Source of the DNA: Vulcanimicrobiota bacterium
Lineage (GTDB): Bacteria > Vulcanimicrobiota > Vulcanimicrobiia > Vulcanimicrobiales > Vulcanimicrobiaceae
NCBI GenBank assembly: GCA_003168375.1
Contig: PMSI01000001.1
Location: forward strand, 992,001 to 1,056,000
DNA length: 64,000 nt
Direction: 5' to 3'
Shown: positions 29,331 to 34,669 of the stretch, piece by piece
How the letters are laid out: every line of letters starts with the position of its first letter
How positions within the stretch are numbered: the first letter of the stretch is position 1
Position numbers and translations under genes: made by a program
The notes under the pieces: model-generated
Seen by the model: only the letters and a program-made list of their open reading frames with translations
Told to the model about the DNA's origin: nothing
Database searches by the model: none

Positions 29331-30222
29331 TAGCCCTCGCATCTCCGTCGTCGTTCCGACGTACAACCGCCTCGACACGCTCCGCCACGTCATCCCCTCG
29401 CTGCTCGCGCAGGATCTGCACCGCGGCGAGTACGAGGTCGTGGTGGCGGATTCGAACTCGACCGACGGAACCGCCGAGTACCTCGCCGGCGTGTCGAACG
29501 AGAACCCGTTCGTGCGCCACCTGCCCGGACCGTACACCGGCCGCGCCTCCGCGCGCAACGCGGGGATCGCGGCAGCGAACGGCCGGATCGTGTTGTTCAC
29601 CGACGCCGACATCATCGCTTCGCCCGATCTGCTCTCGCGCCACCTGGTACACCACGAGCAGCCGGGGATGCGCGCCGTCGTCGGGATGGAGGTGCAGGTC
29701 AACTCGTACGAAGAGTACCTCGCCAAGCGCGCCGACGCCGCGAAGCGCACGCCGCTGCACGGCGAGAAGCCGAAGCGGCTGACGTGGCTTTACTTCCTCA
29801 CCGGCAACGCGTCCGCGCCGCGCGCCGAGCTCGATCGCGTCGGCCGGTTCGACGAGGACTTCACCGGCTACGGCCACGAGGATCTCGAGCTCGGCTACCG
29901 CCTGCAGCACGGCGGCGTCCCGATCGAGTACGAGCCGCTCGCGGTGAACTACCACTGGCATCCCGTACCGTGGGACGAGCAGCAGCAGAAGTACGAGCTG
30001 GCTGGAAAGTCGACGGTGCGGTTCTACCGCAAACATCCGGCCTTCGACGTGCAGTTGCGGCTCGGGATGACGCCGGTCTCGCTCGGGTTGCACGGCCTGA
30101 TCGACCGCGTCGGACCACTCAAGAACTGGATCGAGAACGGCGCCGCCAAGCCGGGCTTTGCGCGCACGCTCTCGTACCAATATCACTACCTCACCGGAGT
30201 CAAGGCAGCCCTGCGTGGATAA
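29305..30222 (+). CDS. Family 2 glycosyltransferase
   Basis: The GT-A enzyme opens with RISVVVPTYNRLDTLRHV, followed by VADSNSTDGTAEY, FTDADIIASPDL (metal motif DAD) and YGHEDLELGYRLQ. Two in-frame starts lie in repeat sequence: ATG 29305, overlapping the upstream stop, and ATG 29326, giving MTSPRISVVV. The second looks more natural for the family, but the overlap favours the first. Its end overlaps aspS by 8 bp. Confidence 0.87.
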   Translation: MTEANLRMTSPRISVVVPTYNRLDTLRHVIPSLLAQDLHRGEYEVVVADSNSTDGTAEYLAGVSNENPFVRHLPGPYTGRASARNAGIAAANGRIVLFTDADIIASPDLLSRHLVHHEQPGMRAVVGMEVQVNSYEEYLAKRADAAKRTPLHGEKPKRLTWLYFLTGNASAPRAELDRVGRFDEDFTGYGHEDLELGYRLQHGGVPIEYEPLAVNYHWHPVPWDEQQQKYELAGKSTVRFYRKHPAFDVQLRLGMTPVSLGLHGLIDRVGPLKNWIENGAAKPGFARTLSYQYHYLTGVKAALRG

Positions 30223-31999
30223 TCCGTTGCGAGTCTCGTGCGGCGTGCTGAGCGCCTCCGACGTCGGGAAAACGGTCGAGCTCGACGGCTGGGTGCACCG
30301 GCGGCGCGATCACGGCGGGCTGATCTTCATCGACGTGCGCGACCGCAGCGGGATCACGCAGGTGACGTTCGATCCGTCGAAGGGCGAGACGTTCGCGCTC
30401 GCCGAGACGCTGCGCGGCGAGGACGTCGTCAGCGTGCGCGGCACGGTGCGCCGGCGTCCGGCAGGGACGGAGAACGTGAAGCTCGCGACCGGAGAGGTTG
30501 AAGTCCCGGCCGACGGGCTGGAGATCCTCAACCGCTCCGAGACGCCGCCGTTCGTCATCGCCGCCGAAGAAGAGCCGGCCGAAGAAGTCCGGCTGCGCTA
30601 CCGCTATCTCGACCTGCGCCGGCCGCGCATGCAGCGCAACCTGACGGTGCGGCACAAGATCGTCAAGGCGATCCGCGATTACTTCGACGAGCACGGCTTC
30701 CTCGAGATCGAGACACCGAACCTGATCAAGTCGACACCGGAGGGTGCGCGGGACTACCTGGTTCCCTCGCGCGTGCACCGCGGCTCGTTCTACGCGCTGC
30801 CGCAGTCGCCGCAGATCCTCAAACAGATCCTCATGATCGGCGGACTCGGCCGCTACATGCAGATCGCGCGCTGCTTCCGCGACGAAGACCCGCGCGCCGA
30901 CCGCCAGCCGGAGTTCACCCAGGTCGACGTCGAGATGACGTTTGTGCGGCAAGACGACGTGCTCGAGGTGATGGAAGGTTCGATGCGCTATGTTTGGCGC
31001 AGCGCGCTCGGCCTCGAGATCCCGAGCTCCTTGCCGCGCCTGACGTACGCGGAGGCGATGCGCCGCTACGGCTCCGACAAGCCGGACCTGCGTTTCGAGC
31101 TCGAGCTGCTCGATGTCGCCGACCTCTTCCGCGGCGGTGCGTTCGGGCTCTTTGCCGACCTCGCCGAGAGCGACGCGAACCGCGTGATCGCGCTGCGCTG
31201 GCCCGGCGGTTCGTCGCTCTCCCGCCGCGACTTCGACGCGGTGACCGAGCTCGCGAAGACGTTCGGCGCCAAAGGGCTCGCCTACATCTCGCTCGCGCCC
31301 GACGGGATCAAAGGTTCGATCGCGCGTTTCGTCGACGAACCGCTCGCGGCCGCGTTGCGCGAACGCACCGGCGCGCAGGACGGCGACGCGATCCTGTTCG
31401 TCGGCGACGCGGCGCGCGGCGCGTCGGAGGTCGCCGGCCGGCTCCGGCTCGAGATCGGCGAGCGGCTCGGACTGCGTAAGCCCGATGCGTTCGCGTTCTG
31501 CTGGGTGCTCGGCTTCCCGCTGTTCGAGCGCGACGAAGAGAGCGGCGAGATCACGTTCTCGCACCATCCGTTCACGGCCCCGGCGCCGGGACAGGAAGCG
31601 CTGTTCGACAGCGATCCGCTCGCGATCACCGCGCAGCACTACGACCTCGTTCTGAACGGCTACGAGCTCGGCAGCGGCTCGATCCGCAACCACCAGGCGG
31701 AGTTCCAGCGCAAGGTCTTCAAGCGTCTGGGATTGACCGACGAGCAGATCGACGATCGCTTCGGCTTCTTCATGGAAGCGCTCACGTACGGCGCGCCGCC
31801 GCACGGCGGGATGGCGCTCGGGATCGACCGCATCGTCATGCTGGCCTGCGGCGAGACGAGCATCCGCGACGTCATCGCCTTCCCGAAGAATCAAATGGCG
31901 CGCGACGTGATGATGGACGCCCCGTCCGGCGTCCCCGATCAGGCGCTGAAGGACTTAGGACTGCAAATCCTGTCGATCCCGCCGAAGCCTGCGGAGTAA
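30215..31999 (+). CDS. aspS: Aspartyl-tRNA synthetase, probably non-discriminating
   Basis: Bacterial-type class II AspRS of 594 residues from GTG 30215: N-terminal OB fold, motif 2 FRDEDPRADRQPEFTQVD, a GAD insertion domain, and motif 3 GMALGIDRIVML. The OB-fold segment RRRDHGGLIF carries His33. At this position discriminating enzymes such as E. coli have Leu, while non-discriminating AspRS (e.g. Pseudomonas aeruginosa His31) have His. This predicts that it also charges tRNA-Asn, to be corrected by GatCAB. The gene's 3' end appears to be the site of a later insertion. Confidence 0.96.
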   Translation: MDNPLRVSCGVLSASDVGKTVELDGWVHRRRDHGGLIFIDVRDRSGITQVTFDPSKGETFALAETLRGEDVVSVRGTVRRRPAGTENVKLATGEVEVPADGLEILNRSETPPFVIAAEEEPAEEVRLRYRYLDLRRPRMQRNLTVRHKIVKAIRDYFDEHGFLEIETPNLIKSTPEGARDYLVPSRVHRGSFYALPQSPQILKQILMIGGLGRYMQIARCFRDEDPRADRQPEFTQVDVEMTFVRQDDVLEVMEGSMRYVWRSALGLEIPSSLPRLTYAEAMRRYGSDKPDLRFELELLDVADLFRGGAFGLFADLAESDANRVIALRWPGGSSLSRRDFDAVTELAKTFGAKGLAYISLAPDGIKGSIARFVDEPLAAALRERTGAQDGDAILFVGDAARGASEVAGRLRLEIGERLGLRKPDAFAFCWVLGFPLFERDEESGEITFSHHPFTAPAPGQEALFDSDPLAITAQHYDLVLNGYELGSGSIRNHQAEFQRKVFKRLGLTDEQIDDRFGFFMEALTYGAPPHGGMALGIDRIVMLACGETSIRDVIAFPKNQMARDVMMDAPSGVPDQALKDLGLQILSIPPKPAE

Positions 32000-32502: not shown

Positions 32503-33267
32503 ATGCCGAATACGGGCCGGACGTGGAAAACGATCGTCCAAGACGTCGTGGAAAAGCAGCCGCGCGTGTTTCATCTCGCGGATATCCTTCAACATGCGGA
32601 TGAGCTTGCCGCAGAATATCCGGCGAATCGGTTTGTCGACGCAAAGATACGCCAAAGCTTGCAAGTTCTTCGTGACCAGGGCGTGCTGCGATTCCTCGGC
32701 GCGGGCCGCTATGAGCGGCTTGACGCTCAACCAGCATTTAGCCCGTTCTTCGACCCCTCTCTCGCGGGGGGCTACACGAATCGCGCACAGGTCGCGCGCG
32801 TGCTGATCGAAACCTGGGCCGAGATGAATCTCTATTGCCTGCACTGTACGCGCGATGCATTGGCGCGGTTGCCGCCCAACACACCGGTCGCGGATTTTGC
32901 TTGCCCTAGTTGCGACGCGACATACCAATTAAAGGCAAAGGATGGGCGGTTTGGCAGTTTGCTCATAGGCGCGGCGTACCACACCACGTTGCGCGCAGTG
33001 CGCGAGGGCAAGATGCCCGCGCACATTTTGGTCGAATTCGACCGGCGCCGGGCGACGGTCGTTTATGCGGATGGGCTGCCGGGGGCACTCATCGATGAAG
33101 CACGGGTGATCGCACGTCGCCCGCTATCATTGAACGCGCGGCGCGCCGGATGGCAAGGCTGCAACATTGATGTATCCGGCTTGCCGTCGGTCGCAATTGT
33201 GCAGCCGGCGGGGACGGATCGCACGGATGCGCGGCGCCACTGGCGGACACTGACCACCAAGCCTTAG
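32503..33267 (+). CDS. DpnI-like restriction endonuclease with swapped domain order
   Basis: The 254 residues resemble DpnI and the Dam-replacing family, but in reverse order. Residues 5-75 are winged-helix-like: FHLADILQHADELAAEYPAN then KIRQSLQVLRDQGVLRFLG, as in the DpnI C-terminus. Residues 105-235 are nuclease-like: CLHC (Cys112, Cys115), NTPVADFACPSC (Asp131, Cys134, Cys137), YQLKAK (Gln142, Lys144) and LNARRAGWQGCNI. Spacing matches DpnI Asp53-Glu64-Lys66, with Gln in place of Glu. DpnI cuts G-methyl-A-TC and needs no cognate methyltransferase; none is nearby. GC and codon use differ from neighbours. Confidence 0.8.
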   Translation: MPNTGRTWKTIVQDVVEKQPRVFHLADILQHADELAAEYPANRFVDAKIRQSLQVLRDQGVLRFLGAGRYERLDAQPAFSPFFDPSLAGGYTNRAQVARVLIETWAEMNLYCLHCTRDALARLPPNTPVADFACPSCDATYQLKAKDGRFGSLLIGAAYHTTLRAVREGKMPAHILVEFDRRRATVVYADGLPGALIDEARVIARRPLSLNARRAGWQGCNIDVSGLPSVAIVQPAGTDRTDARRHWRTLTTKP

Positions 33268-33958: not shown

Positions 33959-34669
33959 TCAAACTTCCTTGGCAGGACTAGGACCAAGCAGCGAACGCGC
34001 CCGGCTGAATACGGCGTCGAGCATCGATTCGGTGAGGACGCCGGTGTTCGTATTCTGCCGGCTCGGGTGGTACGAAGCGAGCAGCGTCACACCGGCACGC
34101 CCGGGCAGATCGACGACCGTCTCGGCCAGATGGGCGAACGGCCCGCGCGGGCCGCAGTACGTCCCGATCTCTTTGGCCAGCGCGTGGACGGCGTCGTCGG
34201 CGATCTTGCCGAGCGTCACCACGACGCGAACGTTTCGCAGCGCCGCGAACTCGTCGCGCAAGTACGGGGCACAGTTCGCCCGCTGCTCGGGCGTCGGCTT
34301 GTTGGCGGGCGGCGCGCAGCGGACCGCGGCGGTGATGAACGTGTCGCGCAGCACCAGCCCGTCGTCGCGATGCGAGGCGTTCGGCTGGCTGGCGAAGCCC
34401 GCGCGGTGCAGCGCCCGGTAGAGCCACTCGCCGCTCCCGTCGCCGGTGAAGACGCGGCCGGTCCGGTTGGAGCCGTGGGCACCCGGGGCGAGGCCGACGA
34501 GTACGACCCGTGCCCGCGGGTCGCCCCAGCCGGGCACGGGGCGCGACCAGTAGTCCTGGTCCAGGAATGCGCGCTTCTTCACGCGCCCGATCTCGGCGCA
34601 GTACGCCCGCAGCTCGGGGCACTTGCGGCACGCGACAACGCGCCGCTCGATCGTCTCGAGGGTGGGCAT
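33959..34669 (-). CDS. Family 5-like uracil-DNA glycosylase (UDGb)
   Basis: Base-excision repair glycosylase of 236 residues. The motif GLAPGAHGSNRTGR (59-72) and the C-terminal SYHPSRQNTNTG are those of UDGb, which removes uracil, hypoxanthine and xanthine. Four Cys (14, 17, 118 and 133) fit the iron-sulfur cluster of families 4 and 5. Family 4 would show GEAPGxxE instead. It is the first gene of a two-gene operon ended by the terminator at 33602. Confidence 0.92.
   Translation of the reverse strand: MPTLETIERRVVACRKCPELRAYCAEIGRVKKRAFLDQDYWSRPVPGWGDPRARVVLVGLAPGAHGSNRTGRVFTGDGSGEWLYRALHRAGFASQPNASHRDDGLVLRDTFITAAVRCAPPANKPTPEQRANCAPYLRDEFAALRNVRVVVTLGKIADDAVHALAKEIGTYCGPRGPFAHLAETVVDLPGRAGVTLLASYHPSRQNTNTGVLTESMLDAVFSRARSLLGPSPAKEV

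Follow-up and report, generated by a model that had tools for sequence, protein, structure and literature searches.

The gene at positions 32503..33267 (+) of the window, the 64,000-nucleotide stretch of DNA analyzed here, encodes a protein of 254 aa that is, judged by its sequence matches, a genuine DpnI-family nuclease carrying a DpnI-type winged helix, with the two domains in the order opposite to that of DpnI. The winged-helix-first form is an inherited family within one bacterial phylum, Eremiobacterota, where it makes up a single clade. Because its catalytic and methyl- and GATC-contact residues are conserved, the protein is probably a stand-alone, chromosomally inherited N6-methyladenine (6mA)-dependent restriction endonuclease from the DpnI (Dam-replacing) family, its PD-(D/E)XK nuclease preceded by a methyl-reading winged helix.

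Domain order and fold of the window protein

We translated the span 32503-33264 (254 aa) and compared the protein with Pfam and, by phmmer, with the PDB. The results revealed an N-terminal winged helix (DpnI_C, PF17726; aa 6-71; 32518..32715, +; E=4.2e-18) scoring 65.7 bits against a curated cut-off of 23, followed by an 8-residue linker (aa 74-81; 32722..32745, +) and a PD-(D/E)XK nuclease domain (DpnI, PF06044; aa 82-233; 32746..33201, +; E=2.2e-39) scoring 135 bits against a curated cut-off of 26.7. The C-terminal strand and helix (aa 234-254; 33202..33264, +) correspond to the last part of the nuclease domain in DpnI, up to about residue 179. DpnI (4esj/4kyw) was the sole strong PDB match and aligned in two segments of swapped order: query residues 82-231 matched DpnI chain residues 7-155 (2e-24), and query residues 6-73 matched chain residues 189-257 (7.6e-5), where the PDB chain numbering in the phmmer output equals the published DpnI numbering + 3. 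In this alignment, Asp131, Gln142, and Lys144 fell on DpnI Asp53, Glu64, and Lys66, giving Asp-Gln-Lys in place of the catalytic Asp-Glu-Lys triad, within an active-site stretch that also contains Cys134 and Cys137 (32893..32934, +). PADLOC matched the protein as a 'Type II methyl-directed restriction enzyme' (E=9.5e-43). A preliminary description of the gene had proposed the reversed order, the DpnI-like active-site spacing, and a length about that of DpnI (254 aa), all of which these comparisons confirmed, and the profile searches that it recommended identified each half as a Dam-replacing (DpnI) family domain far above cut-off.

The AlphaFold model of the protein had a mean pLDDT of 87.4 and a pTM of 0.69. 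Residues 78-254 aligned with DpnI 1-179 (4kyw) at Z=21.6 and 2.4 A over 175 residues, as expected of a DpnI nuclease fold, while residues 1-75 formed a winged-helix fold that a fold search placed among winged helices. In fold searches of the PDB and BFVD, DpnI alone was a strong nuclease match, the lack of others carrying no weight. Structural aligners follow chain order and cannot superpose both domains on DpnI together, so it is the sequence match that supports a probable kinship between the N-terminal winged helix and the one in DpnI. The superposition suggested earlier thus succeeded for the nuclease, and for the N-terminal region it gave the fold but not the kinship. Nothing was concluded from how the model places the two domains relative to each other.

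Distribution, conservation, and origin of the swapped order

We surveyed homologues in part of the known phyla, covering Eremiobacterota, three other groups (the phyla to which a Bacteroidaceae bacterium and a Thermoplasmata archaeon belong, plus one further phylum), and about 96 more genomes. A PF06044 match was present in 18 of the 149 Eremiobacterota genomes, and every readable DpnI-family copy of this phylum was winged-helix-first, giving 17 distinct full-length proteins (the window protein and 16 loci) and one frameshifted copy. The nuclease-then-winged-helix order was reversed in all 17, each having a linker of 8 or 9 residues, whereas 23/23 full-length homologues from the three other groups were nuclease-first and, where measured, had 31 or 32 residues separating the equivalent domain edges. 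The about 96 further genomes outside Eremiobacterota yielded no match. Phage and plasmid records contained no winged-helix-first copy, their matches being to Neisseria and to winged helices alone, and viral contigs scanned with the winged-helix-first alignment likewise contained none. Most relatives from named records were titled 'Candidatus Eremiobacterota', and in the nuclease tree the winged-helix-first proteins formed one side of a branch with support 100/99. In genome G042 the winged-helix-first gene (L025/L027) is frameshifted, and the same genome carries a D12 methylase (L101). A divergent winged-helix-first protein from G107 (L026) has lost one zinc-type cysteine and keeps the Asp, Gln, Lys, and methyl-cleft residues.

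In DpnI, Leu129, Arg135, Trp138, and Gly140 contact the methyl group, and Arg126 and Arg135 contact the G bases (PMC4117772). The equivalents of Arg126, Leu129, Arg135, Trp138, and Gly140 were invariant in 17/17 winged-helix-first proteins, as were the active-site Asp, Gln, and Lys, three of the four cysteines, and the winged-helix residues Lys229, Arg231, Gln232, and Gln235 (DpnI numbering). Gln18 and Asn48 (DpnI numbering) were kept in 16/17, and the Ser17 position held Ala, Ser, or Thr. The nuclease sequence therefore gives no sign that another modification is read, as had been suggested: apart from Ser17, the residues of the methyl cleft and those contacting GATC vary little or not at all. 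At position 233 in the recognition helix, Ser or Thr occurred in all winged-helix-first proteins, against Gln (once Lys) in the nuclease-first proteins examined. Where it could be estimated, the dN/dS of the winged-helix-first genes was about 0.06-0.14, with dS close to saturation. Since 17 distinct homologues share the order, the linker, and the active site, with codon signs of purifying selection, chance and an assembly or reading-frame artefact are excluded.

The window gene is flanked by aspS (30158-31999) and a uracil-DNA glycosylase gene (33959-34669, -), and in several other genera the winged-helix-first gene lies between the uracil phosphoribosyltransferase and serine hydroxymethyltransferase genes. 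Because no partner gene is conserved across all winged-helix-first loci compared, the gene looks stand-alone and largely vertically inherited.

The arrangement had been called circular-permutation-like, a term that holds for the architecture. As to its origin, the swap may have arisen either through circular permutation within a DpnI gene or because a separate winged helix was newly fused in front of a nuclease. In one tree of the short winged-helix domain, the winged-helix-first sequences grouped with two short winged-helix proteins of viral contigs (96/85); AU tests rejected none of the groupings tested (p=0.26-0.54), this tree being too short to tell them apart. Viral contigs (L076, L078, L080, L083) carry open frames of 74-85 aa with little beyond a DpnI_C-like winged helix, possibly stand-alone 6mA readers or decoys, and two additional winged-helix scans of viral contigs returned the same contigs. 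In G173, from the phylum of the Bacteroidaceae relative, a DpnM-like methylase gene is followed 1 base later by the start of a nuclease-first DpnI gene (L033:546-1499 and 1501-2280), and the C-terminal end of this methylase does not align to DpnM, as if replaced by the DpnI gene.

Proposed function and rival explanations

We infer activity, Gm6ATC specificity, and a defence role for the winged-helix-first protein from its sequence. Each of the two domains would bind a GATC-like site with a methylated adenine, with the winged helix perhaps serving as an effector or tether, and the nuclease would cut inside its own site via Asp131, Gln142, and Lys144. Dam-methylated foreign DNA would be cut and the unmethylated host chromosome would be safe. 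A search for D12-class matches found no Dam/DpnM-type methylase in the window's own genome, which carries two PF01555 methylases not of evident GATC type. Three points count against a 6mA-dependent endonuclease: the Gln in place of a metal-binding Glu, the Ser/Thr of the recognition helix, and the presence of DpnII systems in two host genomes.

The replacement of the metal-binding Glu by Gln in 17/17 proteins would suit a catalytically weak or dead binder of methylated DNA, but conservation of the Asp and Lys would be superfluous in a protein that only binds, and both stay invariant even where identity falls to 37%; we regard such a binder as very improbable. The same Gln occurs at the Glu64 position of many nuclease-first Thermoplasmatota proteins (QMK/QLK), and PD-QXK active sites are described for Mrr-type nucleases (PMC11037411); Gln142 is therefore not evidence of inactivity. 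Nor is it a mark of the domain swap, beside which the preliminary description had placed it. That description had also called for a survey of homologues for domain order and the Glu/Gln position, which returned Gln in every winged-helix-first protein, and the archaeal nuclease-first homologues rule out a link specific to the swapped order.

Two genomes, G050 and G109, carry an intact winged-helix-first gene together with a complete DpnII-type restriction-modification system, consisting of a DpnII endonuclease (PF04556), a PF01555 (DpnA-like) methylase, and a DpnM-like D12 methylase. In G050 the two lie 3.3 kb apart on one contig (L092:1769-4857 and L092:8165-8932), and in G109 about 120 kb separates them on a single contig of 1.75 Mb (L102, L109, L009). 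A DpnII system is expected to methylate GATC, so a co-resident winged-helix-first enzyme should be lethal if it cut Gm6ATC, and pneumococci are described as having either DpnI or DpnII (PMC3573125). Across the 149 genomes of the phylum, four bear DpnII and two of these four have the winged-helix-first gene, an overlap for which a hypergeometric estimate gives about 7% by chance for two or more; the co-occurrence shows only that DpnI/DpnII exclusion is not seen. The clade may have a changed requirement (sequence context, a hemimethylated or two-site substrate, the modification, or the trigger) that leaves fully methylated GATC uncut in the cell, and the presence of Gln142 and Ser/Thr52 throughout it would fit. 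We nevertheless consider this unlikely, since the nuclease residues for methyl and GATC readout are conserved and only two genomes are concerned, in which the methylases may be inactive, the assemblies can merge strains, and the genes may be silent. Any of the following could account for the coexistence: unexpressed genes, methylases without activity, assemblies that mix strains, or a shift in specificity. Because of these two genomes, cleavage may be altered, as raised in the preliminary description; if the coexistence is real, it runs against the incompatibility expected of the two systems and suggests that the trigger has changed. It is a speculative and rather improbable extension that a swapped DpnI lineage at the level of the phylum has been freed from GATC-methylation exclusion, responds to another DNA state, and lives with DpnII as a second defence layer. 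The 6mA-dependent restriction endonuclease is the reading that we prefer.

Comparison with known systems

The fusions listed in PMC11037411 comprise PD-(D/E)XK-wH, PUA-wH-HNH, wH-HNH, wH-GIY-YIG, and PLD-wH (wH, winged helix) and NTPase fusions including wH-Mrr-NTPase; a winged helix before a DpnI-type nuclease is absent from these architectures. Open-licence papers searched by the Pfam names, or by Eremiobacterota with restriction endonucleases, gave nothing relevant on the winged-helix-first order and no description of it, and from this absence of evidence we take it as a variant of the DpnI family without a published description found. The wH-HNH and wH-GIY-YIG endonucleases also place a winged-helix methyl sensor before the nuclease, but their nuclease folds are unrelated, and those wH-GIY-YIG enzymes that have been tested cleave DNA outside of their methylated site (PMC11037411). 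FcyTI and Psp4BI are PD-(D/E)XK-wH Gm6ATC endonucleases 58-59% identical to DpnI (PMC11037411).

The Thermoplasmatota Dam-replacing proteins (such as L039-L048) combine a PF06044-type nuclease with a DpnI_C-type winged helix and in many cases share the Gln, but are nuclease-first. The Neisseria Dam-replacing protein, Drg, has the nuclease-first order as well. It belongs to the same family and is encoded by a stand-alone gene (PMC4269198; match in the plasmid collection), but unlike the window gene it lies in a leuS/dam locus (PMC4269198).

New 6mA-dependent nucleases are useful for methylome work. DpnI is a widely used enzyme and a model for 6mA-dependent cleavage. The window protein resembles R.DpnI of S. 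pneumoniae in the homology of both domains, the active-site spacing, the zinc-type cysteines, the methyl-cleft Trp, Arg, Leu, and Gly, most GATC contacts, and the length of 254 aa. It differs in the reversed order, the Gln for Glu64, the Ser/Thr for Gln233, and a linker of 8 residues compared to 31 in R.DpnI between the same domain edges, and the two nuclease domains are about 30% identical. Crosstalk between the two DpnI domains has been reported (PMC4117772), and the same modules in the opposite order allow the dependence of this crosstalk on order and linker to be tested.
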